Assembly (NCBI GenBank): GCA_018268955.1
Contig: JAFDVO010000014.1
Coordinates: 1 to 64,000, forward strand
Direction: 5' to 3'
Source of the DNA: Acidobacteriota bacterium
Lineage (GTDB): Bacteria > Acidobacteriota > Vicinamibacteria > Vicinamibacterales > CAVVIG01
Length of the DNA: 64,000 nucleotides
Of the stretch, positions 10,486-25,818 are shown one piece after another (the first letter of the stretch is position 1; each line of letters begins with the position of its first letter). A program made the translations under genes and the position numbers. Under the pieces are notes generated by a model. It was not told the DNA's origin, made no database searches, and saw nothing but the letters and a program-made list of their open reading frames with translations.

Positions 10486-12930
10486 ATGGAGAATCTGCAG
10501 CCGAAGATTGGTGACCGCGTCCGGGTGCGGCAACGCACATGGGTCGTCCAGGATGTCGATACGCACCAGTCCTGCCGTGTCGTCACGCTCAGGAGCGACG
10601 CGCACGATGGACCGGCAACGATCCGGCGCGTCCTGCATCCGTTCGACGACATAGAGCCGACGGAGCACCAGCGCCGTACGCGTCTCGTCGGCGCCCGCGC
10701 GTGGCATCGCGCCTTCCACGCGCTCGGCCGGTCGCACGGCGGTGCGACGTCGCTGCGTGCCGTGCTCGACGCGCGGATGGACCTGCTGCCCTTCCAGCTC
10801 GAGCCAGCACTGTCACTCGTCGCGGGTCACGGCACGCGGTTCCTCCTCGCAGACGATGTGGGGCTCGGGAAGACGATGCAGGCACTGCTCTGTGCCGGTG
10901 AGATGCGTGCGCGCGGACTTGGCACGCGTGTGCTGGTGCTGACGCCCGCAGGGCTGCGCGAGCAATGGGTCTACGAGGCAGAGGCACGCGTCGGCCTGCC
11001 GCTCAGGCTCGTTGACCAGCTCACGATCAGGCGCCTCGCGGCCACGCTGCCGCCTGACATCAACCCCTGGACGACCGAGCCGTGCGTCGTGGCATCCATC
11101 GATTACGTGAAGCGGCCCGAGGTGCTTCCACTGGTCCGGGCCGCGGCGTGGGACATGGTGATCGTCGACGAAGCGCATGGAAGCTGCGGCGACTCCGACA
11201 GGCGAGACGCGGTGTCCGCGATCGCATCGCGAGCGCTCTTCGTGATCCTGCTGAGCGCGACGCCGCACAACGGGGACGAACACGCGTTTTCGTCGCTCTG
11301 CCACCTCGGACGGCTCGACGAGGAACTTGTGGTGTTTCGCCGGTCACGCACCGAAGCGGGCCGCGATCGTGGACGTCGTGTCCACACGCTGCGCGTCAGG
11401 CCCAGTCCCGCCGAGCGGCGCATGCACGCGGCCGTCGCGAGCCTCACGCGAGCGATCCGGCACGAGCGGGCCGAGCTGAGCCGCGACGCGTGGCTCCTCC
11501 TGTCGCTGCTGCACAAACGCGCGCTCTCGAGCGCTCATGCCTTGGCGGCGTCAGTGGAGCGCCGCCTGCAGTGCCTGGACGACGCGCCCACTCCCAGCGG
11601 CGCCCAGCTGCCACTGCCCCTGGACGATGAGACGGGCGAGCTCGATGGCGGTGACGCGCCGCCGATGTGGAACACGCCGGTGCTCGACGATCGCGGCCTG
11701 GAGCGACGGCTCTTCCAACAGGTCCTCGACGCCGCACGTGAAGCCCAGGGCTGCGAGGCCAAGCTCCGTCGGCTGCGGCGCTTGCTGCAGTCGGTCCACG
11801 AGCCGGTCATCGTCTTCACGGAATACCGGGACACGCTGCTCTACCTTCGCACCCAGGTGGCCTCCGAAGCGGTCGTCATTCACGGGGGTATGTCCCGCGA
11901 CCAGCGCCGCGCGGCACTCGAACAGTTCCGCGCCGGACGTGTCCTCCTCGCGACGGATGCCGCGGGCGAAGGGCTGAACCTGCACCATGAGTGCCGCACC
12001 GTGATCAACCTCGAGCTTCCCTGGAATCCGATGCGGCTCGAGCAGCGCATCGGACGGGTCGATCGGATCGGGCAGCGACGCCGGGTCCACGTGGTCCACC
12101 TGATCGCCAATGGCACGGGAGAGATGCGGCTGCTCGACCGGCTGGCCGCCCGGGTCACCCACGCACAGGATCGCGTGGCCGCACCGAACCCGCTCGGCGG
12201 TCGAGCGGAATGGACCGAGGAGGCATCCGCCGCGATCGTCGTGCTGCGCCGCAGCTCGGAGCACGCCGGGCCGGCCACGTCCACGCTGAGGACGCCACCG
12301 GTCCACCTGACGCGCCTCGTCGACGAGGCACTGCGGGAGGCTGAGCGGATCGAGTGCGTCCGCGCCTTCGCTGGGAATGGGCGCCGGCGGTCCGTTCCTG
12401 GCGTCTCTGCCGAGCCGGGTCGGGCCGCTTCAGCACCACTGCTGGACACGCTCGTCCTTCGCGCTCGTCGCCGCACCATGCGTCGTGCCCTGCGTGGGCG
12501 GCGGCTTCTCGTCTTCAGGAGCCAGCTGCTCGATGCGTCAGGGCGAGCCGTCGCGACGCACGTGCTCGGAGTGCTGGCGGACACCGGGTTGCCACACGAC
12601 TCCGCGATCCGCGCAGGCGCTGCCGCTGCGGCTCGCGCCGCGGCTGAATCGCATCACGATTCCGTCCAGGCCCACCATCGCCTCACCGCCACGCAGTTAC
12701 GGCGCGCACGAGCCATTGCCCGCCTGTGCAGGCCGCCCGGTGCCGAAGAGCAACCCGGGCTTTTCGATCGGCGCGTGGAGCATCTGGCGGCGGCGCGCGG
12801 CCGTGCGGTGCGCGAGGAACGCACGGTCGCCGAGGAGCGCCTCGCGCGCATCGCGACTGCCGCACGCGTCTGCATCGCCGAGCCCGAACTGATGCTGGTC
12901 GCGGTGCCCAGGCCAGACACGTGGCGATGA
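10486..12930 (+). CDS. SNF2/RapA-type DEAH helicase-translocase
   Basis: An 814-residue superfamily 2 ATPase. After a beta-rich N-terminus (1-95) come Walker A DDVGLGKT (123-130), DEAH (228-231) and SATPHN (257-262). The second RecA domain carries VFTEYRDTL, DAAGEGLNL, LPWNPMRLEQRIGRVDRIGQ; the arginine-finger motif VI is intact. Such enzymes translocate on dsDNA. The stop overlaps the start of the methylase gene (ATGA), so the two are made together. SNF2 helicase plus adenine methylase recalls DISARM (drmD/drmMI) and other restriction-like defence systems, but drmA/B/C are absent and no nuclease motif is seen here. Likely defence, unproven. Confidence 0.88.
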   Translation: MENLQPKIGDRVRVRQRTWVVQDVDTHQSCRVVTLRSDAHDGPATIRRVLHPFDDIEPTEHQRRTRLVGARAWHRAFHALGRSHGGATSLRAVLDARMDLLPFQLEPALSLVAGHGTRFLLADDVGLGKTMQALLCAGEMRARGLGTRVLVLTPAGLREQWVYEAEARVGLPLRLVDQLTIRRLAATLPPDINPWTTEPCVVASIDYVKRPEVLPLVRAAAWDMVIVDEAHGSCGDSDRRDAVSAIASRALFVILLSATPHNGDEHAFSSLCHLGRLDEELVVFRRSRTEAGRDRGRRVHTLRVRPSPAERRMHAAVASLTRAIRHERAELSRDAWLLLSLLHKRALSSAHALAASVERRLQCLDDAPTPSGAQLPLPLDDETGELDGGDAPPMWNTPVLDDRGLERRLFQQVLDAAREAQGCEAKLRRLRRLLQSVHEPVIVFTEYRDTLLYLRTQVASEAVVIHGGMSRDQRRAALEQFRAGRVLLATDAAGEGLNLHHECRTVINLELPWNPMRLEQRIGRVDRIGQRRRVHVVHLIANGTGEMRLLDRLAARVTHAQDRVAAPNPLGGRAEWTEEASAAIVVLRRSSEHAGPATSTLRTPPVHLTRLVDEALREAERIECVRAFAGNGRRRSVPGVSAEPGRAASAPLLDTLVLRARRRTMRRALRGRRLLVFRSQLLDASGRAVATHVLGVLADTGLPHDSAIRAGAAAAARAAAESHHDSVQAHHRLTATQLRRARAIARLCRPPGAEEQPGLFDRRVEHLAAARGRAVREERTVAEERLARIATAARVCIAEPELMLVAVPRPDTWR

Positions 12931-15900
12931 CCGGGTACGACGGCTACCTGCTCGCGAGTGAGTTCGTCCGTGCCCGCGCGTCGGAGCCGCATGCGCTGGC
13001 ATTCGCCCGCGACCGACAGGACGCGCTGAAGCGGTGGTGTGCGCACGCCCGTACGCTCGGCCCCGCGTCGCCGTACCGCGCGCTGCTCGATGTGGCGCTG
13101 TATCCGGTGCTGGATCTGCTCGGGTTCGAGGTGGCAGGACCGGCCGAGGTCGCGACCGGCCACGTGCGGGTCAGTGCCCGCGCGGCAGCGACCAAGGTCG
13201 CCGTGATCGTCACAACCTGGGGTGCACCGCTTGCGGCGTTCTGGCGCGAGGCGGTCACGCAGGCCGTCCGCACGGGTGCGGCCTGGTGCCTTCTCTGCAA
13301 CGGCACGCACCTGCGCCTCGTCCACGCGTCCAGGCTGCAATCGAGGCGGCACGCCGAGATCGACCTCGAAGCCGCGGCCGACGACCTGCTGACCGCGTCG
13401 GCGCTGTGGCTGCTGTTCCGCGCTGAGGCGCTGGTCGCACCCGAAGGCCACGTGGGCGTTGCGCAACTGATCGCGGAGGCTGACGACCACGCCACGGGTG
13501 TCTGTCGTTCGTTGCGAGCCGGCGTCCTCGAGGCGTCGTCCGAGGTGCTGCGGGCGCTCGTGGCACGGGAACGCGGCCGGCCTGTGCCCGACGTCTTCGA
13601 GCAGTCGCTGACGGTCGTCTACCGGCTGCTGTTCCTCTTCTTCGCCGAGGCGCGAGCCCTCGTACCTCTGTGGCATCCGGTGTATCGCGAGAGCTACAGC
13701 GTCCACACGCTGCGCGACGCCGCGCTCACCTCAGAAGCCACCGGCTTGTGGGACGCCCTGCGTGCGGTGGCGCGTCTCGCGCACGCAGGCTGCCAGGCCG
13801 GCGGGCTCAACGTCACGCCCTTCAACGGCCGCCTGTTCTCCCCGTCGCGCACGCCCCTTGCCGAACGCCGCGGCCTGGACGATGACGCTGCACGGCGGGC
13901 AATCGTCGCGCTCTCCACCCGCCCGGCTCGCGACGGCACGGCCCGCGAGCGCATCTCGTACCGTGACCTTGGTGTGGAGCAGCTCGGCGCCGTGTACGAG
14001 ACGCTGCTGGACTACGAACCGCGCGTGGAGCGAGGGCCGCGTGGACGCCTGCTCCGCGTCTCGCTGGAGCCCGGTTCCGGTGTCCGCAAGGCGACCGGCA
14101 CGTTCTACACGCCGCAGCCGATCGTCGAGTACCTCGTGCGCAACACGCTGTCGCCGCTTGTGCGCGACGCCACCCCAGAGGCGATCCTCGGGTTGCGCGT
14201 GCTCGATCCGTCGATGGGCAGCGGGGCCTTCCTGGTCGGTGCCTGCCGATTCCTGGCGGCGGCGTACGAGACGGCACTCATCGATCATGGTCGCTGCCAC
14301 GCGACGGACATCGGGCCAGGCGAGCGCGCCTCGATGCACCGGCTTGTCGCGGAGCGCTGCCTGTTCGGCGTCGACATCAACCCCACTGCCGTGCAGCTCG
14401 CCCGCCTGTCGCTGTGGCTCACGACGCTCGCGGCTGATCGGCCGCTCACGTTCCTGGATCATCATCTGCGGTGCGGCGACAGCCTGGCAGGCACATGGAT
14501 CGCCTGCCTGCGAACCTCTCCGATCCGCAGGATGCAGGGAGGCACGCTGCCCCTGTTTCCCGACGCGGCACAGGAGTCGGCGCTGGCTGGTGCGTTGCCC
14601 GTGCGCTTCCGCCTCGCGGAGGATCCGAACGACACACCGGCGCAGGTCCGCGCCAAGGAGCGGGCGCTCGCGGCGCTGGCGAAGGCCGACACACCGTTGG
14701 CGCGGTGGACACGCATCGCCGACCTCTGGTGCGCGGGCTGGCTGGCCGATCCTCCTGTCCCCGCGGCAGCGTATGCGGAACTCGCCGACGCCATCCTGAC
14801 GTGCCGCTCGGCGCTGCCGAGGGGGACCCAGCACTCGCTCCTCGACCGCGTGGCGCACACCGCGCGAGCGCAGCGGCTGTTCCACTGGGAGCTGGAGTTC
14901 CCGGAGGTGTTCTTCGATGAACACGGCCGGCGACGGGCGGATGCCGGGTTCGACGCGGTCCTCGGCAATCCACCCTGGGACATGGTGCGCGCCGATGGCG
15001 CGGGCGACAGGACCAGCGCCCGCGCGGAAGCTGCACGGCTGGTCCGCTTCGCCAGGGAATCGGGCGTGTACGAGGTACGTCCAGGTGGGCAGGTGAATCG
15101 GTACCAGCTGTTCACGGAGCGGGCGATCGCACTCACGCGACCGGGCGGACGCATCGGGCTCGTCCTGCCGTCGGGGATCGTTGCGGACAGCGGCAGCGCG
15201 CCGGTCCGTCGCCTGCTCTTCTCCCGCACGTCGGTCGATCACATCGTCGGCTTCGACAACCGTGCCGGCACGTTTCCGATTCATCGCAGCGTCCGCTTCG
15301 TGCTGCTGTCTGCCACCGCGGGTGGCGCCACAAGGGAGATGCACTGTCGTTTCGGAGAAACGAATGCAGCGAGCCTCCCTGATGCGCTGTCGGACGGAGG
15401 TGATCGATCCAGCTGGTATCCGCTGCGCGTCAGCCCGGCCCTGCTGCACAAGATCTCAGGCGAGGACCTCTCGGTCCCTGATGCGCGGACACCCGTGGAC
15501 CTCGCGCTCGTCGAGCGCGCGGCGGAGATCTGTCCCGCACTCGGCGCGGCTGACGGCTGGCAGGTCCACTTCGGGCGCGAGCTGAATGCGACCGAGGACA
15601 GCGACGTGCTCCGTCAGCACGACGCCGGGCTGCCCGTGCTGGAAGGCAAGCTGATCGAGCCGTTTCGCGCACGCGTGGACCTGGTGCGGTGGCGGATCGC
15701 TCCGGATGCCGCGGCAGAACGGATCGGCCCGCGAGCGGCGCGTCCGAGGCTCGCGTACCGGGACGTGGCAAGCGCGACCAACCGCGTCACGCTCATCGCC
15801 GCCCTGCTGCCAGCCCACACCGCCTCGACGCACACGCTCTTCTGCCTGAAGGAAGAGCTGCCCTTAGATGCGCAACAGGTGCTCTGCGCGCTTTTCAACA

Positions 15901-16196
15901 GCCTCGTCGTGAACTTCTTTGTCCGGATGCGGGTCTCCATTCATGTGACGACGAGCATCGTGGAACGGCTGCCGGTTCCGACGGCGGATCGGGTCGGTCC
16001 CTGGTGGGGCGAGTTGGCGGAGGGCGCCGCTCTCCTCTCGCGCGAGGACGCGCCGCATGTATTCGCGCGGCTCAACGCCATCGTCGCGAAGCTCTATGCG
16101 CTCGACGCGGCCGAGTTCGGCCATGTCCTCGCGACCTTTCCGTTGATTGACAGGTCCGACCGGGACGCGATGATGCGCGCCTTCGAAGAGCTCTAG
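12927..16196 (+). CDS. Eco57I-type adenine-specific DNA methyltransferase
   Basis: A 1089-residue class I SAM-dependent DNA methylase. Residues 1-350 are of unknown fold; no clear PD-(D/E)xK nuclease motif can be read. The methylase core starts at GTFYTPQPIVEYL (about 390), with the SAM motif LDPSMGSGAF near 425, acidic motif GVDINPTAVQLARLSL near 475 and catalytic NPPW near 680. The C-terminal part resembles the TaqI/Eco57I target-recognition region. Start at 12927 overlaps the helicase TGA; the longer frame upstream is helicase shadow. It probably modifies N6-adenine in an asymmetric site, as self-marking for a helicase-methylase defence or as a type IIG-like enzyme. Confidence 0.88.
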   Translation: MTGYDGYLLASEFVRARASEPHALAFARDRQDALKRWCAHARTLGPASPYRALLDVALYPVLDLLGFEVAGPAEVATGHVRVSARAAATKVAVIVTTWGAPLAAFWREAVTQAVRTGAAWCLLCNGTHLRLVHASRLQSRRHAEIDLEAAADDLLTASALWLLFRAEALVAPEGHVGVAQLIAEADDHATGVCRSLRAGVLEASSEVLRALVARERGRPVPDVFEQSLTVVYRLLFLFFAEARALVPLWHPVYRESYSVHTLRDAALTSEATGLWDALRAVARLAHAGCQAGGLNVTPFNGRLFSPSRTPLAERRGLDDDAARRAIVALSTRPARDGTARERISYRDLGVEQLGAVYETLLDYEPRVERGPRGRLLRVSLEPGSGVRKATGTFYTPQPIVEYLVRNTLSPLVRDATPEAILGLRVLDPSMGSGAFLVGACRFLAAAYETALIDHGRCHATDIGPGERASMHRLVAERCLFGVDINPTAVQLARLSLWLTTLAADRPLTFLDHHLRCGDSLAGTWIACLRTSPIRRMQGGTLPLFPDAAQESALAGALPVRFRLAEDPNDTPAQVRAKERALAALAKADTPLARWTRIADLWCAGWLADPPVPAAAYAELADAILTCRSALPRGTQHSLLDRVAHTARAQRLFHWELEFPEVFFDEHGRRRADAGFDAVLGNPPWDMVRADGAGDRTSARAEAARLVRFARESGVYEVRPGGQVNRYQLFTERAIALTRPGGRIGLVLPSGIVADSGSAPVRRLLFSRTSVDHIVGFDNRAGTFPIHRSVRFVLLSATAGGATREMHCRFGETNAASLPDALSDGGDRSSWYPLRVSPALLHKISGEDLSVPDARTPVDLALVERAAEICPALGAADGWQVHFGRELNATEDSDVLRQHDAGLPVLEGKLIEPFRARVDLVRWRIAPDAAAERIGPRAARPRLAYRDVASATNRVTLIAALLPAHTASTHTLFCLKEELPLDAQQVLCALFNSLVVNFFVRMRVSIHVTTSIVERLPVPTADRVGPWWGELAEGAALLSREDAPHVFARLNAIVAKLYALDAAEFGHVLATFPLIDRSDRDAMMRAFEEL

Positions 16197-17419: not shown

Positions 17420-18103
17420 ATGACTGCTCCTGCTCCGCGCTTCACGCCGAAGACCCTGTCGTTCCTTCGCTCGCTCGCGCGCAACAACGACCGCGAGTGG
17501 TTCCGGGAACGCAAGGAGCAGTACGACGCGCACGTGAAGGCGCCGATGCTCGCGGTCATCGAGCAGCTGGCCGTCGACTTCCAGGACTTCGCTCCGGAGC
17601 TCGTGGCAAGCCCCAGGTGCGTGTACCGGATTTACCGCGACACCAGGTTCTCCGATGACAAGACGCCGCTGAAGACCAACATCGCGGCGAGCTTTCCCTG
17701 GCGCGGCCTGCATCGCCATCAGGGTGCCGGGCTGTACATCGAAGTGGCCCCGCGCTGGGTGTGGGTGGGCGGCGGGATGTACGCCCCCGAGACAGCGCAG
17801 CTCGCCGCCGTGCGCGAGCACATCGCCGGCAACCACCAGCGCCTTCGGGCAATCGTGGAGTCACCGCGCTTCCGCCGGTCCGTTGGCCGTCTCGAAGGCG
17901 AGACGCTCACGCGAGTGCCGCGCGGGTTCGACAAGGCGCATCCGGCGGCCGACTACCTGCGGCACAAGCAGTTCCTCGCCGGGAAGGAGTTCCCGGCGGC
18001 GTTCGCCCACGACCCTGCCTTCTACCGCGGCGTGCTCGGCGTCTATCGCGAGGTCGCGCCGTTGATCCGCTTCCTCAACGAGCCGTTCACCGACCGGTTG
18101 TGA
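17420..18103 (+). CDS. DUF2461-family protein
   Basis: A 227-residue cytosolic protein matching the DUF2461 pattern throughout: FLRSLARNNDREWF near the N-terminus, VYRIYRDTRFSDDKTPLKTN in the middle, a GLYIEVAP/GGGMYAP block, and DYLRHKQFLAGKEF near the C-terminus. The family is widespread and uncharacterised. Divergent from the TauE gene with about 40 bp between starts, so their promoters overlap. Confidence 0.85.
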   Translation: MTAPAPRFTPKTLSFLRSLARNNDREWFRERKEQYDAHVKAPMLAVIEQLAVDFQDFAPELVASPRCVYRIYRDTRFSDDKTPLKTNIAASFPWRGLHRHQGAGLYIEVAPRWVWVGGGMYAPETAQLAAVREHIAGNHQRLRAIVESPRFRRSVGRLEGETLTRVPRGFDKAHPAADYLRHKQFLAGKEFPAAFAHDPAFYRGVLGVYREVAPLIRFLNEPFTDRL

Positions 18104-18407: not shown

Positions 18408-19802
18408 GTGTTGTTCGAACCGGCGAGTGCGTCATCGTTCCTCGCGTTCTTCACGACTATCCACCTCGCGCTCGCCGCGCTGAGGAACCACCGCAGCGCG
18501 ACCACCGCGCCGTTCAGCTCGCTCACTGTCGTGTCGCTGGCGCTCGCCGCCCTGCCGTGGATCTTTCCGAGCCTCTACGGGCTCGGGTTCGGGCTCCTCG
18601 CGCACGTGGCCTGGTTTGGCGCGTGCGAGCGGTTTGCGCCGCTTGCGGCGAAGGCCGCCCCCGCACCACCGGTCGCGCCCGTTCGATTTCCCGGCACGAC
18701 GCAGCCGCCTTCGAGTGCCGCGGCGATACGCAGCAGTTCACCGCCCCGTGGGTTCGTCCAGACTCCCGTTGTCGCGCTCGTCGACGAGACGCCTGACATC
18801 CGCACCATCCGGATGCTGCGCCCTGACGGGTTCCAGTTCGAAGCCGGCCAGTTCATCCCGATCCGCATCCGCGTGGATGGACGCGAGTACGTTCGCTGCT
18901 ACTCGATCAGCTCGGCGCCGCACAGCGATGGCTACCTCGAAGTCTCGGTGAAGCGGCAGGGGCTCGTCTCGAACGCCCTGCACGCCACGGCTCGCTCGGG
19001 CTCGATCCTCTCGATCAAGGCGCCGAACGGCGCGTTCAAGTACCCGTCGGCGGATGACAGGCCGCTGCTCCTCCTCGCAGGTGGCGTGGGCATTACGCCG
19101 CTCATGAGCATGCTCCGGCACGCGGTCCACTCGGAACCGACCCGTCGCGTGACGCTGTTGTACAGCGCAGCGGAGGAGACCGGCTTTGCGTTCCGAGACG
19201 AGTTGGACTCCCTGGCGCGTCGCCATCCGCAGGTGAAGGTCGTCTACTGCCTGACCAGGCAGCCGGCGCCGGCACCGACGTATTACCCAGGACGGATCGA
19301 TGCTGCCCTGCTGCGAACGGCGGTCCCCGATGCGTCCCACTCAATCGCCATGCTCTGCGGCCCGGCGCAGATGATCGACGGGCTCAAGGCGCTCCTCCTC
19401 GACATCGGAGTTCCCACCAGCCAGATCCGGCACGAAGTCTTCGAAGCAGCGGTGGCCGCGTCGGCGGGCGCCCATGCCGAAGGCGATGCTCACGTGGGCA
19501 AGGTCGGCCGAAGGTCGAGCGCGGACGCTGCCGGCGCTGGCAACACGGTCCAGGTGCGATGTCTCCCCGACGGCCAGACGATGGCGGTGGCGCCGGGGCA
19601 GACGCTCCTCGAAGCCGCCGAGAGCTGCGGCGTGGAGATCCCGTCGCTGTGCCGAGCGGGCGTCTGCGGCACCTGCCGTGTCCGCATCACCGAAGGTGAC
19701 GTCGCCTGCGAGACCACGACGCTCGACGCCAGCGAACTGGGTCAGGGCTACGTCCTCGCCTGCGTCGCACAGCCACTCAGCAACTGCACGGTGCAGCGAT
19801 GA
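18408..19802 (+). CDS. Membrane-anchored flavin/NAD(P)H:2Fe-2S oxidoreductase
   Basis: A 464-residue redox protein, GTG start. Residues 8-25 and 38-72 are hydrophobic (membrane anchor); a Pro-rich linker runs to about 112. The FNR-like module has the FAD motif RCYS at 163-166, the NAD(P) motif GGVGITP at 225-231 and CGP at 317-319. The C-terminal domain (380-464) is a plant-type ferredoxin: Cys415-x4-Cys420-x2-Cys423 and Cys452. It should pass electrons from NAD(P)H through FAD to 2Fe-2S. It overlaps the cytochrome b gene (ATGA) and leads a five-gene operon, so it likely feeds, or is fed by, the membrane haems. Confidence 0.88.
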   Translation: MLFEPASASSFLAFFTTIHLALAALRNHRSATTAPFSSLTVVSLALAALPWIFPSLYGLGFGLLAHVAWFGACERFAPLAAKAAPAPPVAPVRFPGTTQPPSSAAAIRSSSPPRGFVQTPVVALVDETPDIRTIRMLRPDGFQFEAGQFIPIRIRVDGREYVRCYSISSAPHSDGYLEVSVKRQGLVSNALHATARSGSILSIKAPNGAFKYPSADDRPLLLLAGGVGITPLMSMLRHAVHSEPTRRVTLLYSAAEETGFAFRDELDSLARRHPQVKVVYCLTRQPAPAPTYYPGRIDAALLRTAVPDASHSIAMLCGPAQMIDGLKALLLDIGVPTSQIRHEVFEAAVAASAGAHAEGDAHVGKVGRRSSADAAGAGNTVQVRCLPDGQTMAVAPGQTLLEAAESCGVEIPSLCRAGVCGTCRVRITEGDVACETTTLDASELGQGYVLACVAQPLSNCTVQR

Positions 19803-20737
19803 ACGCGAACGCGATCCCGCACCGCCCGACGGCCAACATCCCCGCGGCAGCCGCGCCCCGGAGTGCGGTCGTGTCGTGGATGACCAGCGGACTGTTCTGG
19901 AGCGCGGTGGTGTCGGTCGCGTGCGTCGGCTGGGTGCTGTTCGCGCAGGACGGACGCGAGTACTACCTGACGCCGCTGTCGACACGCGCCTACTCAACGG
20001 CGCATCCCCTGCTCCGCCCGTCCGGGCCGATCGGGCAGACGCTCGGTGTCGTTGGCGCCGCGTTGATGCTGGTGCCGTTCGTCTACATGCTCCGCAAGCG
20101 CATCCCCGGGCTGCGGGCGATCGGTAGCGCGCGAGGCTGGCTCGAGGTGCACCTGTTCTGCGGCGTGGTCGGACCCGTGCTCGTCACGCTGCACACCTCG
20201 TTCAAGTTCAACGGCATCATCTCGGCCGCCTACTGGTCGATGGTCATCGTGATGCTCTCCGGCTTCGTGGGGCGCTTCCTCTTCGTGCGCATCCCACGCT
20301 CCATCCGCGGCAGCGAGCTGACCCGCAGCGAACTCGATGCCCGGGCAGAGTCGCTCAACGGCGAGATCGCCGAGTCAGTGCAGTCCATGGCGCTGCTCGA
20401 ACGGGTCCACGCGTTCGAGGCTTCGGTCGTGCCGTCCGGAGCGCACCTGTCCTTCCTGGACCTGTTCACCGGGGAACTCACGCTGGGACGCAAGGCTCAC
20501 CGCTTCGAGCAGGAGCTGACGTCCGCAGGGCTCTCGCCCGAACTCGCGCATGCCGTCGTCACCTTGACCCGTGAGCGCGCGACCCTGCTGCGGCGTATCG
20601 CGTACCTGCAGAAGACGAAGACGCTGTTCGGCCTCTGGCACGTGTTCCACCTGCCGCTCGTCTACCTGATGCTCGTCATCGTCGCTGCGCACATCGGCGT
20701 CGCCCTGTACCTGGGCTACGTGCCGTTCCGGTGGTAG
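19799..20737 (+). CDS. Four-His b-type cytochrome, ferric-reductase-like membrane subunit
   Basis: A 312-residue inner-membrane protein with about five helices (31-50, 78-98, 116-133, 143-165, 280-306). His118/His132 and His284/His298 form two His-x13-His pairs in opposite helices, the spacing expected for two stacked b haems, as in ferric reductase and NOX-type domains. The loop between (170-270) is long, charged and helical. Start overlaps the reductase stop and the stop lies two bases before the first 24-haem gene. It probably carries electrons across the inner membrane between the FAD/2Fe-2S protein and the periplasmic cytochromes. Confidence 0.8.
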   Translation: MNANAIPHRPTANIPAAAAPRSAVVSWMTSGLFWSAVVSVACVGWVLFAQDGREYYLTPLSTRAYSTAHPLLRPSGPIGQTLGVVGAALMLVPFVYMLRKRIPGLRAIGSARGWLEVHLFCGVVGPVLVTLHTSFKFNGIISAAYWSMVIVMLSGFVGRFLFVRIPRSIRGSELTRSELDARAESLNGEIAESVQSMALLERVHAFEASVVPSGAHLSFLDLFTGELTLGRKAHRFEQELTSAGLSPELAHAVVTLTRERATLLRRIAYLQKTKTLFGLWHVFHLPLVYLMLVIVAAHIGVALYLGYVPFRW

Positions 20738-20739
20738 CG

Positions 20740-22602
20740 ATGCGAGGTTCTGGATCCTGCGCGCGCCTCCTCCGCATCGTCGCTGCCGGCCTGTTCATCT
20801 GGATCGCCAGCACGGGAACGGCACATGCGCAGCTCGGCAGCCTGCTCTCCCCTGGTCGGCTCGCGAAAGCGCACGCGAACCTGGAAGGACTGTCGAACTG
20901 CCAGCAGTGCCATGAGCAGGGGCAGAAGGTCTCAGCGACGAAGTGCCTGACGTGCCACAAGCCGGTGGCAGAGCGGATCCGGCTGAAGAAGGGTGTCCAC
21001 AAGGATGTCCAGGGCAACTGCATTGCCTGCCATGCCGAACATGCGGGGGTCGACGGTGAACTCCGCCCGTTCGACCAGAAGTCGTTCGACCACGCAAAGG
21101 TCACCGGGTTCGCCCTCGACGGGAAGCACGCGAACCTCGCAGCTGGTTGTGCCGCCTGCCATCAGGGCCCCTCATTCCTGACCGCACGGGCTGAGTGCGC
21201 GTCCTGTCATCAGGACGTCCACAAGCCGTCGCTCGGCGCGAAGTGTGACACCTGCCACTCGACGCGCACGGCGTTCAAGGGGGTCGGCACGGCATTCGAC
21301 CACACCAGGGCGGCCTTCCAGCTCCAGGGAGCGCACCAGACCGTCGCCTGTGAGAAGTGCCACGTCAACCGCACCTTCAAGGGGATTGCATTCGCGAGCT
21401 GCACCAACTGCCACGCCGATCGGCATCGGGGCAGCTTCGGGGCGACGTGCACGACCTGCCACACGAACGAGAGCTGGCGCACGAAGCGGGTGGACCACGC
21501 GAAGACCGACTTCGCGCTGGTCGGCCTGCACCAGAAGGTCGACTGCGCGGCATGCCACAAGCAGCCACCCATGCGCGTGGCGTTACGCGCGGATACGTGC
21601 GCGGCCTGCCACGTCGACGTCCATCGCGGCACCTTCAAGCAGGACTGCAAGGCCTGTCACAACGAGAACGGGTTCGGGAAGGCTCCGTTCGATCATGCGC
21701 AGACCCGCTTCGCCCTGACCGGCAAGCATGAGGCGCTCACCTGCGAGAAGTGCCACACCAGCCCGGCTGCCCAGCCGACTGCGCCTGCGGCGAAACGGGT
21801 CGCCGACTTCCGCGGGCTGAGCACGACCTGCGTGAGCTGCCACACCGATGTCCACCAGGGCCAGCTCGGCGCGTCGTGCGAGACGTGCCACACGTCTGCG
21901 AGCTTCCGGGTCAGCTCGTTCACGCACAAGAGCGATCCGTCGTTCTTTGCCGGCCAGCACGCCTCACTGACGTGCGAGAAGTGCCACGTGCCGTCGGCGC
22001 CGCGAGCAACGCGGACCGACCTGCCGGTCGCCCTGAACGTGCGCTACCGCGACCTGCCGAAGGCGTGCGCATCGTGCCACGAGGACGCGCACCTCGGGCA
22101 GGAACCGGCGACATGCGAGACGTGCCACACGATCACCTCTCCCAAGTTCGCCGTCCCCGGCTTCTCCCACGCGCGCACCAGCTTCGCCCTGACCGGCAAA
22201 CACGAGACCGCCGCGTGCGCGGTCTGCCACAAGCGTGAGACGGGGCAGTTCCCGAAGGGCCCCGGCACCGCCATCCGTTTCAGCGGCCTGGCGCATGAGT
22301 GCCGAAGCTGCCATCAGGACGTGCATCTCGGCCAGCTGAGCGGCGCATGTGAGACGTGCCACGCGACGAGCTCGTTCACGATTGACCACTACACGCACAA
22401 GGACCGGACGCTGTCGTCACTGTTCGTCGGCCGACACCTGAAAGCCACCTGCCAGGACTGCCACAAGGCTGCGACGACGAACTTCCCCGCGGGGCGCGGG
22501 ACCGCGGTCCGCTTCAAGGTCGAGAGGACCTGCGTCAGTTGCCACACGGACATTCACAAGGGAGCGCTCGGCCCGAACTGCGCCACCTGCCACCGCCCAT
22601 GA
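20740..22602 (+). CDS. Exported 24-haem c-type cytochrome (first of two)
   Basis: A 620-residue exported protein: signal peptide about 1-30 ending AHAQ, then 24 CxxCH haem-attachment motifs counted by eye, one per about 25 residues. Motifs come in a loose repeat of the form CxxCH...DVHxGxLGxxCxTCH...FxHxxTxFALTGKHxxxxCxxCH, whose extra His residues are likely distal ligands. The layout belongs to the cytochrome c3/c7-like multihaem class. It probably forms a long haem wire in the periplasm. An upstream in-frame GTG at 20731 would overlap the cytochrome b gene; the ATG at 20740 fits the signal peptide better. Confidence 0.9.
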   Translation: MRGSGSCARLLRIVAAGLFIWIASTGTAHAQLGSLLSPGRLAKAHANLEGLSNCQQCHEQGQKVSATKCLTCHKPVAERIRLKKGVHKDVQGNCIACHAEHAGVDGELRPFDQKSFDHAKVTGFALDGKHANLAAGCAACHQGPSFLTARAECASCHQDVHKPSLGAKCDTCHSTRTAFKGVGTAFDHTRAAFQLQGAHQTVACEKCHVNRTFKGIAFASCTNCHADRHRGSFGATCTTCHTNESWRTKRVDHAKTDFALVGLHQKVDCAACHKQPPMRVALRADTCAACHVDVHRGTFKQDCKACHNENGFGKAPFDHAQTRFALTGKHEALTCEKCHTSPAAQPTAPAAKRVADFRGLSTTCVSCHTDVHQGQLGASCETCHTSASFRVSSFTHKSDPSFFAGQHASLTCEKCHVPSAPRATRTDLPVALNVRYRDLPKACASCHEDAHLGQEPATCETCHTITSPKFAVPGFSHARTSFALTGKHETAACAVCHKRETGQFPKGPGTAIRFSGLAHECRSCHQDVHLGQLSGACETCHATSSFTIDHYTHKDRTLSSLFVGRHLKATCQDCHKAATTNFPAGRGTAVRFKVERTCVSCHTDIHKGALGPNCATCHRP

Positions 22603-24452
22603 GAACAACGCGCCTGTTCGCGATCGCCCTGCTCGGACTCCTCGGCCTGCTCACCGGGGCGCGCGATGCGTCCGCGCAATTCGAGACACCGAGCCGTGCC
22701 TTCCACAACGGCACATCGTTCAGGCTCGAGGGGCGCCACCAGACCGTGCCCTGTACCTCGTGCCACATCAACAACCAGTACGCCGGTACGCCTCGCACCT
22801 GCTATCAGTGCCACTGGGTCCGCCGGAAGGACGACCGCTACCAGACGCGGCTCGGCAACGATTGCGAGTCGTGCCACCGCCCGACCTCATGGACCGCAGT
22901 CAACTTCAACCACTCGACGCTGGCAGGTGTGGCGCTCGGTCCGAACCACCGGACGATCGGGTGCGACTCCTGCCACATCAACGCACAGTTCAAGGGGACG
23001 ACGAGCGACTGCTTCTCGTGTCATCAGCGGGACTACCAATCGACGGCGAGCCCCAATCACGTGGCCGCAGGGTTCCCGACGACGTGCGATTCGTGCCATA
23101 AGCCGAACGACACGGTGTGGCAGAACTCAGGCGGACGCGGGTTCAATCACGCGTCCGTGTTCCAGCTGGTCGGCCGGCACGCCACGGTGACCTGCGTCTC
23201 ATGCCACAAGAACAACGTCTATCGCGGTACCTCGCGCGACTGCGTCGGCTGCCATCTGCCGGAGTACAACGCCACGCGGACGCCGAATCATGCCGCGGCG
23301 GGCTTCCCGACCACGTGTGAGACCTGCCACCGGGCGACCGACGCGCAGTGGGCCGGTGCGAACTTCAATCACAACGCGGTGTTCGCGCTGCAGGGCGTGC
23401 ATGCGACCGTCCAGTGCGTCAGCTGCCACAAGAACAACGTGTATCGCGGCACGGCGCGCGACTGTGCCGGCTGTCACATCGCGAAGTACAACGCGACCAC
23501 AACCCCGAACCATGCCGCCGCAGGGTTCCCGACGACATGCGACTCCTGCCACCGTCCGACTGACACGCAGTGGGCAGGCGCCTCTTTCAACCACAACGCC
23601 GTGTTCGCCCTGCAGGGCGTCCACGCGACGGTACAGTGCGCCACGTGCCACAAGAACAACGTCTACCGTGGCACCGCCCGTGACTGCGCTGGCTGTCACA
23701 TCGCCAAGTACAACGCCACGTCGAAACCGAATCACGCGGCCGCCGGGTTCCCGACGACGTGCGAGTCGTGCCACCGTGCAACGGACGCGCAGTGGACCGG
23801 AGTGGCCTTCAACCACAACGCCGTGTTCGCCCTGCAGGGGGTCCACGCGACGGTGCAGTGCACCACCTGCCACAAGAACAACGTCTACCGCGGCACGGCC
23901 CGGGATTGCGCTGGCTGCCACATCGCCAAGTACAACGCGACGACCGCGCCGAACCATCCGGCGGCAGGATTCCCGACCACCTGCGAGGCATGCCACCGGG
24001 CGACCGACACGCGATGGACCGGCGTGAGCTTCAACCACAACGCCTCGTTCCCTCTACAGGGAGTGCACGCGACGACGGCGTGCGCGTCGTGCCACAAGAA
24101 CAACGTCTACAAGGGCACGTCGCGGGACTGCGCCGGCTGCCACATCGCGAAGTACAACGCGACCACGAGCCCCAACCACGCGTCGGCCGGTTTCCCGACC
24201 TCTTGCGACAGCTGCCATCGCGCCACGGACACGAGCTGGAGTCAGGGCCGGTTCAGCCACACGCAGTTCCCGCTGTCCGGACGTCACAACGTTGCGTGCA
24301 CGCAGTGCCACACGACACCGAACAACTACCGCGTCTTCTCCTGCACGACCTGCCACGGGCGCAGCGAAACCGACAGCAAGCACAGAGGCCGTTCGGGATA
24401 CGTCTACGACTCGAACGCGTGCTACTCATGCCATCCGAACGGACGGAGCTGA
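22599..24452 (+). CDS. Exported 24-haem c-type cytochrome (second, modular repeats)
   Basis: A 617-residue exported protein with signal peptide (1-27, ending ASAQ) and 24 CxxCH motifs. The centre is built from consecutive 74-residue modules, each with three haem sites, of the form FNHNAVFALQGVHATVQC...KNNVYRGTxRDCxGCH...NHAAAGFPTTCxxCH. At DNA level the modules repeat every 222 bp (for example 23424 and 23646) and are highly similar, so they arose by tandem duplication. Start overlaps the previous stop (ATGA). Haem count equals that of its neighbour though the sequences differ. Likely part of the same electron wire, perhaps reaching the barrel. Confidence 0.9.
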   Translation: MRTTRLFAIALLGLLGLLTGARDASAQFETPSRAFHNGTSFRLEGRHQTVPCTSCHINNQYAGTPRTCYQCHWVRRKDDRYQTRLGNDCESCHRPTSWTAVNFNHSTLAGVALGPNHRTIGCDSCHINAQFKGTTSDCFSCHQRDYQSTASPNHVAAGFPTTCDSCHKPNDTVWQNSGGRGFNHASVFQLVGRHATVTCVSCHKNNVYRGTSRDCVGCHLPEYNATRTPNHAAAGFPTTCETCHRATDAQWAGANFNHNAVFALQGVHATVQCVSCHKNNVYRGTARDCAGCHIAKYNATTTPNHAAAGFPTTCDSCHRPTDTQWAGASFNHNAVFALQGVHATVQCATCHKNNVYRGTARDCAGCHIAKYNATSKPNHAAAGFPTTCESCHRATDAQWTGVAFNHNAVFALQGVHATVQCTTCHKNNVYRGTARDCAGCHIAKYNATTAPNHPAAGFPTTCEACHRATDTRWTGVSFNHNASFPLQGVHATTACASCHKNNVYKGTSRDCAGCHIAKYNATTSPNHASAGFPTSCDSCHRATDTSWSQGRFSHTQFPLSGRHNVACTQCHTTPNNYRVFSCTTCHGRSETDSKHRGRSGYVYDSNACYSCHPNGRS

Positions 24453-24453
24453 C

Positions 24454-25818
24454 ATGTCCTGGAGCCTGCCGGTGACTCGCGCCTCCCGCCTGACAGTGGC
24501 CGTGGCCAGCGCCCTCCTCGGGCTCGTCGTGCCCGCTGCACTCCAGGCGCAGGACGGCACCGCGTCCGTCCCCAAGCCGCGACCGAGCGGACGCATTTCG
24601 ATGTTCGTCGACTCATGGTCGACGTCGCCGGATGACGGGCCGAGCCGATCGTTCCGCAACGTCATCACAACCGCGACGCTGCGCGCCCCAGAGGGTGAGG
24701 CCGACGGCCTCGAGTACGGCATGGACATGCGGCACAGCGGCCTGAGTGGCGGCACACGGCCCAATCGCTTCTCGCTCTACGAAGGGTTCGTGGGAGCGAG
24801 GGCGGCCGACGGCCACCTTCGGATCCGCGGCGGTCATCTCTGGCTGACCGACCTCGGCGCACTCGGCTCGCTCGCAGGAGGACACGTCGAGGTGCGACAG
24901 AAGGAGTCGGCACGGCAGGGCATCGGCCAGCTGCGCGTCGGCGCGTTTGGCGGCCTCGAGCCGAAGATCCTCGATACGGGGTATTACTCGGGCGTGAAGA
25001 AGTTCGGCGTCTACGGCGCGCTCGACGGCGACGCAGGACGACGGCATTCGCTCGGCTACATACAGGTCCGCGATCAATCGCTCATCGAACGCTCGGTCCT
25101 GTCCGCGACCAACTTCGTGCCGGTCGGCCGGACGTTCTTCCTCTACCAGGCGGCCGAGTACGACCTGTCGCAGCCGGCCGGGATGGCAAAAGGCGGATTC
25201 AACTACTTCTACGCCAATGCGCGCGTGAACCCGTCGGCTCGGGTGGAGCTTCAGGGGACCTACAATCGCGGACGCTCGATCGACACGCGCGGCATTGCGG
25301 ACGACGTGCTGAACGGTCGGCCGGTATCGCAGGCCACCGCGCTCGGGCTCGCCTATGAATCGCAGGGGGGCCGCATCACCGTCGAGCCGATCGCGCGCGT
25401 GCGCGTCTACGCAGGGTTCACGCAGGACAAGTCGAGCCGAGAGGACAAGCCGGCACACCGCACGATGGTCGGCGGGTACGCGCCGAATGTCGGCGGGACG
25501 GGGCTCGACGTCGCGGCGTCCGACACGAGAACGCTCCGCTCGAACGGCAGCTACCACTCGAGTTACGTGTCGGTCGGACGGCAGGTGGGGCGGCGCGTCT
25601 ACGTCTCCGGCGACTACACGACCTCGCTCTCGATCATCCGCTTTTCGCTGAGCAACGGCCTCATCACCGAGGATCGTCCGTCCACGCGGCGGCTGAGCGG
25701 CACGTCCTCCGTCAACGTGGGACCGGCCACCTCACTTCAGCTCACTGTCGATCGCACCTGGGATGTCGGCCTCCGCGAACTGCGAGTGCTCGCGGGGCTG
25801 TCGTATCGCTTCAGGTGA
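24454..25818 (+). CDS. Outer-membrane beta-barrel protein of the multihaem operon
   Basis: A 454-residue exported protein: signal peptide 1-32 (ALQAQ), then a stretch without hydrophobic helices but rich in alternating polar/aromatic strands ending at the C-terminus in LSYRFR, as in outer-membrane barrels. It follows the second 24-haem gene by one base. In known metal-reducing bacteria a porin (MtrB, or the porin of Geobacter porin-cytochrome complexes) sheathes a multihaem cytochrome to carry electrons through the outer membrane; the same role is inferred here from context. Similarity to MtrB itself was not seen. Confidence 0.7.
   Translation: MSWSLPVTRASRLTVAVASALLGLVVPAALQAQDGTASVPKPRPSGRISMFVDSWSTSPDDGPSRSFRNVITTATLRAPEGEADGLEYGMDMRHSGLSGGTRPNRFSLYEGFVGARAADGHLRIRGGHLWLTDLGALGSLAGGHVEVRQKESARQGIGQLRVGAFGGLEPKILDTGYYSGVKKFGVYGALDGDAGRRHSLGYIQVRDQSLIERSVLSATNFVPVGRTFFLYQAAEYDLSQPAGMAKGGFNYFYANARVNPSARVELQGTYNRGRSIDTRGIADDVLNGRPVSQATALGLAYESQGGRITVEPIARVRVYAGFTQDKSSREDKPAHRTMVGGYAPNVGGTGLDVAASDTRTLRSNGSYHSSYVSVGRQVGRRVYVSGDYTTSLSIIRFSLSNGLITEDRPSTRRLSGTSSVNVGPATSLQLTVDRTWDVGLRELRVLAGLSYRFR

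Follow-up and report, generated by a model that had tools for sequence, protein, structure and literature searches.

Can a single operon connect cytoplasmic NAD(P)H with the cell surface? The question is raised by five genes of an Acidobacteriota bacterium (assembly GCA_018268955.1), found in the first 64,000 nucleotides of contig JAFDVO010000014.1; this whole stretch is termed here the window. The genes, g1 to g5, code for a membrane-anchored reductase, a cytochrome b, two giant multihaem cytochromes c and an outer-membrane β-barrel. We read them, with a probability of about 0.58, as a trans-envelope electron conduit resembling the PCC3 systems, driven by NAD(P)H and directed outward in a form of export similar to that of NADPH oxidases.

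Five genes from reductase to barrel

The operon occupies positions 18408-25818 of the window, and its genes all lie on the + strand:

18408..19802, + strand: g1, membrane-anchored NAD(P)H reductase (Pfam, 15-homologue alignment, AlphaFold, VIA-align, motifs)
19799..20737, + strand: g2, five-helix di-haem cytochrome b, a PCC3-type inner-membrane protein (hydropathy, invariant residues, motifs, weak Ferric_reduct matches)
20731..22602, + strand: g3, exported cytochrome c with 24 CxxCH, probable periplasmic wire (motif counts, haem counts of relatives)
22599..24452, + strand: g4, exported cytochrome c of 617 residues with 24 CxxCH, probable outer wire (motif counts, tandem repeat, haem counts of relatives)
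23202..24233, + strand: 222-base-pair (bp) tandem repeat within g4 (4.6 copies, one copy per three-haem module)
24454..25818, + strand: g5, outer-membrane β-barrel of 454 residues with a signal peptide (AlphaFold, Foldseek, VIA, profile match)

The g1/g2 and g3/g4 junctions are ATGA overlaps, g4 and g5 are 1 bp apart, and the gap between g2 and g3 is 2 bp when counted from the ATG at 20740. The original prediction for this DNA had described one operon with ATGA overlaps or 1-2 bp gaps, and both its coordinates and its junctions are correct. It had also named the products: a FAD/NAD(P)-2Fe-2S reductase with a membrane anchor, a cytochrome b with His-x13-His twice, two exported proteins with 24 CxxCH each, and an outer-membrane barrel. 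All four assignments hold up, on the evidence given below for each protein.

g1 is a 464-residue protein whose FAD_binding_6, NAD_binding_1 and Fer2 domains all score above the Pfam cut-offs. Its FAD domain displays an RCYS motif at 163, its NAD(P) domain GGVGITP at 225 and CGP at 317, and the 2Fe-2S cysteines are found at the C-terminus (C415, C420, C423, C452). Structurally, its AlphaFold model (pLDDT 80.4) is closest in VIA-align to the reductase domain of flavohaemoprotein (Z 31.2), followed by NqrF (about 27) and the DH domain of the bacterial NADPH oxidase SpNox (25.0). Hydropathy and the model agree on three N-terminal hydrophobic helices (about 9-29, 38-52 and 56-76), the "anchor", in which T16, H19, R29, P50, H66 and W69 are invariant in a 15-sequence alignment. 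As H19 and H66 are located mid-helix in helices 1 and 3, they could act as haem ligands; hypothetically, the anchor may bind a further b haem between them.

g2 is 312 residues long and shows five hydrophobic segments. It harbors two motifs of the same kind, W114-x3-H118-x13-H132 and W280-x3-H284-x13-H298, as well as an SGFVG at 154; the four histidines, together with S154, G155 and G158, do not vary across 36 sequences. The Ferric_reduct family (PF01794) is weakly matched by 10 of 33 g2 relatives, with a best E-value of 4e-4 that does not reach the curated cut-off, and a sequence search of solved structures with the g2 alignment returned noise only.

g3 starts at ATG 20740 or GTG 20731 and g4 at ATG 22599, and signal peptides are predicted on both. 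Each possesses exactly 24 CxxCH motifs arranged in eight three-haem modules, with 24.6 residues per haem. Chance is ruled out as the source of this abundance: 1000 residue shuffles give means of 0.31 (g3) and 0.26 (g4), with a maximum of 3. The modules contain further histidines (3, 4, 3, 3, 3, 3, 4 and 4 in g3; 2, 3, 3, 3, 3, 3, 3 and 3 in g4), at least three in almost every one, so that nearly all haems can be bis-histidine ligated and a wire is expected rather than an enzyme. Both proteins score far below the cut-off (192 bits) of TIGR03508, the decahaem MtrA, DmsE family, with 45 bits for g3 and 25 bits for g4. Among the sequences of solved structures, g3 finds weak matches to photosynthetic reaction-centre cytochromes only, and it has no homologue in the host genome outside the operon.

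The AlphaFold model of g5 is a barrel of about 22 strands (pLDDT 84.8, pTM 0.72), and all its structural matches listed (Foldseek, VIA) are outer-membrane barrels, with Z up to 20.1. MtrB does not figure among these listed matches, an absence that does not amount to exclusion, nor was there a profile match to a solved chain; a sequence search of solved structures with the g5 alignment gave noise only. A profile comparison with the barrels encoded beside Bacteroidota homologues of the operon (type B, see below) yields a match over 383 columns (probability 94%, E 1e-7), which indicates, at the level of sequence, that these barrels and g5 are homologous.

The proposed conduit and its relation to PCC3

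Around the observed gene order, cofactor motifs, predicted folds, conservation and co-inheritance, the following chain can be proposed. g1 would take a hydride from cytoplasmic NAD(P)H onto its FAD and pass single electrons to its 2Fe-2S center, from which they would reach the two stacked b haems of g2 and cross the inner membrane, as in NADPH oxidases. The g3 wire, with its 24 bis-histidine c haems, would be long enough for the periplasm and would deliver the electrons to the outer membrane, where a second 24-haem wire, g4, would take over and lead through the g5 barrel, or past it, to an acceptor outside the cell. The g1 and g2 steps follow by analogy with well-known families (FNR, NADPH oxidase); for the remainder, we infer an assembly of the five proteins into one complex, a g4 that extends to the surface, and an outward flow of electrons to such an acceptor. 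The original prediction had claimed a full path from cytoplasmic NAD(P)H to the cell surface. Its inner-to-outer-membrane conduit stands as the best reading, with a putative surface end and substrate.

This path would draw electrons from the negative face of the membrane with no pumping of protons in return, at the cost of membrane potential. A more likely role than efficient respiration is therefore the removal of excess reductant, or the reductive mobilization of Fe(III), Mn(IV), quinones or partner cells, helped by the membrane potential.

The idea that known conduits differ in their inner-membrane modules and contain fewer haems has to be abandoned, as PCC3 possesses the same kind of cytochrome b and two giant cytochromes; an architecture unrelated to known conduits is thereby ruled out (PMC5566968). 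PCC3 was described by He et al. in 2017 as four genes reported from Proteobacteria: a porin, two giant cytochromes, one of them extracellular (median 34 haems) and the other periplasmic (median 21 haems), and an inner-membrane protein of about 300 residues with five helices, WX3HX13H on helices 3 and 5 and SGXXG on helix 4, placed in a quinone-linked model (PMC5566968). Compared by this published description, g2 agrees in size, in its five helices, in its two WX3HX13H motifs and in its SGXXG, g5 corresponds to the porin gene of the cluster, and g3 and g4 to the two giant cytochromes, which are rich in repeats and have few residues per haem. Their haem counts are multiples of three, as in the periplasmic subunits of Gallionellaceae PCC3 (21, 24 or 27 haems; PMC10734462). 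A porin cluster has also been published for Burkholderiales, its cytochromes having 24 and 49 haems (PMC7399161). The window operon differs in that it begins with a membrane-anchored NAD(P)H/FAD/2Fe-2S reductase, and in its barrel of about 22 strands, compared with up to 42 in PCC3.

Other systems share fewer traits. PCC4, from the same study, combines an HX13H five-helix membrane protein with further redox genes and a porin; however, its three cytochromes (4, 5 and 10 haems) are all periplasmic, none being extracellular, and one subgroup has an extra Fe-S gene. MtrCAB/MtoAB and the Geobacter OmbB-OmaB-OmcB complex also cross the outer membrane with a porin and multihaem cytochromes, although these cytochromes are smaller (decahaem in Mtr) and electrons enter through quinol-linked proteins (CymA, ImcH, CbcL). 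The NADPH oxidase/ferric reductase (FRD) superfamily shares the two HX13H pairs, which bind two b haems, and the FNR-type NAD(P)H/FAD reductase, with the SpNox DH domain as a close fold match. In contrast, the reductase of the window operon stands apart as a protein with an anchor and a 2Fe-2S center of its own, the acceptor is a multihaem cytochrome, and the Ferric_reduct match is sub-threshold.

With respect to the PCC3 description, the novelty thus lies at the cytoplasmic end, in the built-in NAD(P)H reductase. In the literature searched, which left out most subscription papers and the supplements of He et al., we found no published NAD(P)H-linked PCC3 and no PCC3 in Acidobacteria; nor did we find a description of a dedicated NAD(P)H reductase in a PCC3-like cluster, of a reductase swap, or of the fused 51-haem form presented below.

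Distribution and operon types

A search for the gene set in other genomes, proposed as a check of the original prediction, shows that the operon recurs. The distribution of g2 homologues is patchy: of 60 near relatives 10 possess one, and in the phylum as sampled they occur in 85 of 396 genomes. Two types can be distinguished: type A, comprising the window and 17 further loci with g2 at least 45% identical, and type B, with g2 about 30-38% identical. g1 adjoins g2 in all 18 type A operons and, in the 396-genome sample, the long-anchored g1 (E < 1e-150) occurs in 11 genomes that are exactly the 11 having g2 at E < 1e-70.

Type B operons are devoid of g1 and harbor instead a membrane-anchored NAD(P)/FAD/2x[4Fe-4S] reductase unrelated to it. 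This flavoprotein is present in 24 of 30 same-phylum loci, the six others having no reductase nearby (some are cut by contig ends), and in 80 of 81 Bacteroidota loci, which were chosen by similarity to one Emticicia protein and cover one part of the diversity. Its replacement of g1, or the reverse, keeps the NAD(P)H function. Type A g2 sequences form one clade beside all those of type B, with a modest branch support (0.61), and a single exchange of reductase is therefore the simplest history. The usual order in Bacteroidota is cytochrome b, reductase, a cytochrome with 20-23 CxxCH, a cytochrome with 13-77 CxxCH, and a barrel of about 490-560 residues. Six of these loci (L099, L103, L108, L114, L123 and L126) apparently have three giant cytochromes close together, with 23, 25 and 50 CxxCH in L123. 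A scan of genome contigs with a reduced g2 alignment found Bacteroidota and close kin only. Emticicia oligotrophica DSM 17448 has a sister version of the operon on a plasmid, and plasmid searches with g3 and g4 gave matches in Emticicia only.

A lack of the barrel in most homologous loci would have refuted the original prediction, but this is not what the loci show. Of the 12 type A operons with enough downstream DNA, nine have kept g4 and g5 (the window, L044, L047, L048, L049, L057, L058, L061 and L064), g4 being counted in L049 and L061 as the second half of a fused protein; the other six type A operons end at contig edges. The barrel is also kept in many type B operons, next to the outer cytochrome gene. 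In two type A loci, L055 and L050, g2 contains an in-frame TAG, which may reflect decaying copies, assembly errors or recoding.

The giant cytochromes vary in steps. Unfused type A relatives of g3 possess 23-24 CxxCH and complete unfused relatives of g4 possess 21, 24 or 27, which, together with the 222-bp repeat in g4 of the window, points to gain and loss by whole three-haem modules. In seven type A loci, g3 and g4 are fused, the first half matching g3 and the second half g4. Three fusions are complete (L049, 1357 residues, 51 CxxCH; L061, 53 CxxCH; L067, 1255 residues, 51 CxxCH), and four show the same pattern but are cut by contig ends (L056, L059, L060, L063). Since both wires belong to one polypeptide in these loci, they are contiguous there, direct evidence that g3 and g4 can adjoin each other in one haem chain.

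Short three-gene modules, in which homologues of g1 and g2 are followed by a multihaem cytochrome (cytochrome c3 family), are found on plasmids of Methylophaga, Bradyrhizobium, Sphingobium and Glaciecola, and in the phylum of the window (L051, L053, L184, L186). They differ from the operon in having a cytochrome of about 7 haems, no second cytochrome and no barrel, and a g1 whose N-terminal part is longer and has one transmembrane helix ahead of the FAD domain. A conserved histidine starts this helix in each of the eight short-type reductases (L076-L079, L051, L053, L184, L186), which recalls H19 and H66 of g1. On the Glaciecola plasmid pGLAAG01 (L078), the module immediately precedes genes for hydrogenase maturation and for a NiFe hydrogenase, a layout that suggests a periplasmic hydrogenase wired to NAD(P). 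On the Sphingobium plasmid p-A-Sy (L079), it lies among copper and heavy-metal resistance genes, and similar g2 matches occur on 28 Sphingobium plasmids. Very distant loci (L188-L194) carry a g2-like domain in open frames of about 815-1067 residues, mostly adjoining proteins that join a 4Fe-4S/NAD(P) reductase domain with 8 CxxCH.

The operon is preceded by a DUF2461 gene ending at 18103 and followed by an FkbM-type methyltransferase gene on the opposite strand. No sigma-70-type promoter was found at the operon, and such promoters may not apply in this host. Elsewhere in the window, at 10486-16196, an SNF2 helicase adjoins an N6-adenine/Eco57I-type methylase; their best PADLOC matches are DrmD and DrmMI, a DISARM-like pair.

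Electron entry, direction and cellular role

Several observations weigh against an NAD(P)H-driven conduit to the surface. g2 itself has no significant Pfam family match, and it may contain a quinone site. Three type A loci of one sub-clade (L046, L050, L055) possess neither g4 nor the barrel and the short plasmid modules also lack a barrel, which means that the module can have a purely periplasmic role. The g3-g4 fusions are hard to place half outside the cell: as they could not be exported as two parts, the barrel would have to enclose the haem chain, unless the g4 half stays at least partly inside. Finally, electrons may run inwards in the short version of Glaciecola, beside its NiFe hydrogenase.

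The cytochrome b might instead belong to a quinone-linked PCC3, g2 exchanging electrons with the menaquinone pool and g1 being an accessory or an alternative input. He et al. modelled PCC3 in this way (PMC5566968), standard extracellular systems begin at the quinol pool (PMC7096707), and the type B operons with no reductase nearby are in line with it. We nevertheless hold a quinone link to be unlikely. The pairing of g1 with g2 is invariable in type A and a second, unrelated NAD(P)H flavoprotein takes this place in type B; two such flavoproteins beside one cytochrome b favor direct coupling to NAD(P)H, and no other argument weighs as much against a cytochrome b fed by quinones alone. The same chain could also work as an uptake system, from Fe(II), a partner cell or a cathode inwards to reduced Fe-S or NAD(P)H, as PCC3 occurs in Fe(II) oxidizers (PMC5566968, PMC10734462) and the Glaciecola short version lies next to a hydrogenase. 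However, no RuBisCO was found in the host genome, which disfavors autotrophic growth on Fe(II) through the Calvin cycle. The genome does have five matches to haem-copper oxidases and, on another contig, a NiFe hydrogenase; the host is oxygen-capable and without a Calvin cycle marker. From general bioenergetics, direct transfer from Fe(II) to NAD(P)+ would also be uphill in potential and work against the membrane potential, which makes uptake distinctly improbable. Least probable of all is an electron store or relay confined to the periplasm, both cytochromes staying there and the barrel docking the wire or having another role. The barrel-less sub-clade and plasmid versions would fit, and the fusions rule out a separate export of g4 in those species, but the barrel persists in 9 of the 12 type A operons with enough downstream DNA and in many of type B, beside the outer cytochrome gene.

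The outward, NAD(P)H-driven conduit can be extended into a broader picture, which we offer tentatively and hold to be less probable than the conduit itself. It would be independent of quinones, lead from NAD(P)H to the surface under the drive of the membrane potential, and be widespread in the phylum of the window and in Bacteroidota, with two unrelated flavoproteins swapped onto the same cytochrome b and possibly a third b haem at H19/H66 of g1; in some species, one polypeptide of 51-53 haems would conduct electrons all the way from the inner to the outer membrane, or across the latter.

These proposals are testable in cultured bacteria, such as E. oligotrophica DSM 17448. In Shewanella and Geobacter, extracellular electron transfer starts from quinol (PMC7096707). 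If true, a conduit that draws directly on NAD(P)H would free electron export from its coupling to quinones and to proton pumping, and would help to explain the presence of giant cytochromes in oxygen-respiring heterotrophs.

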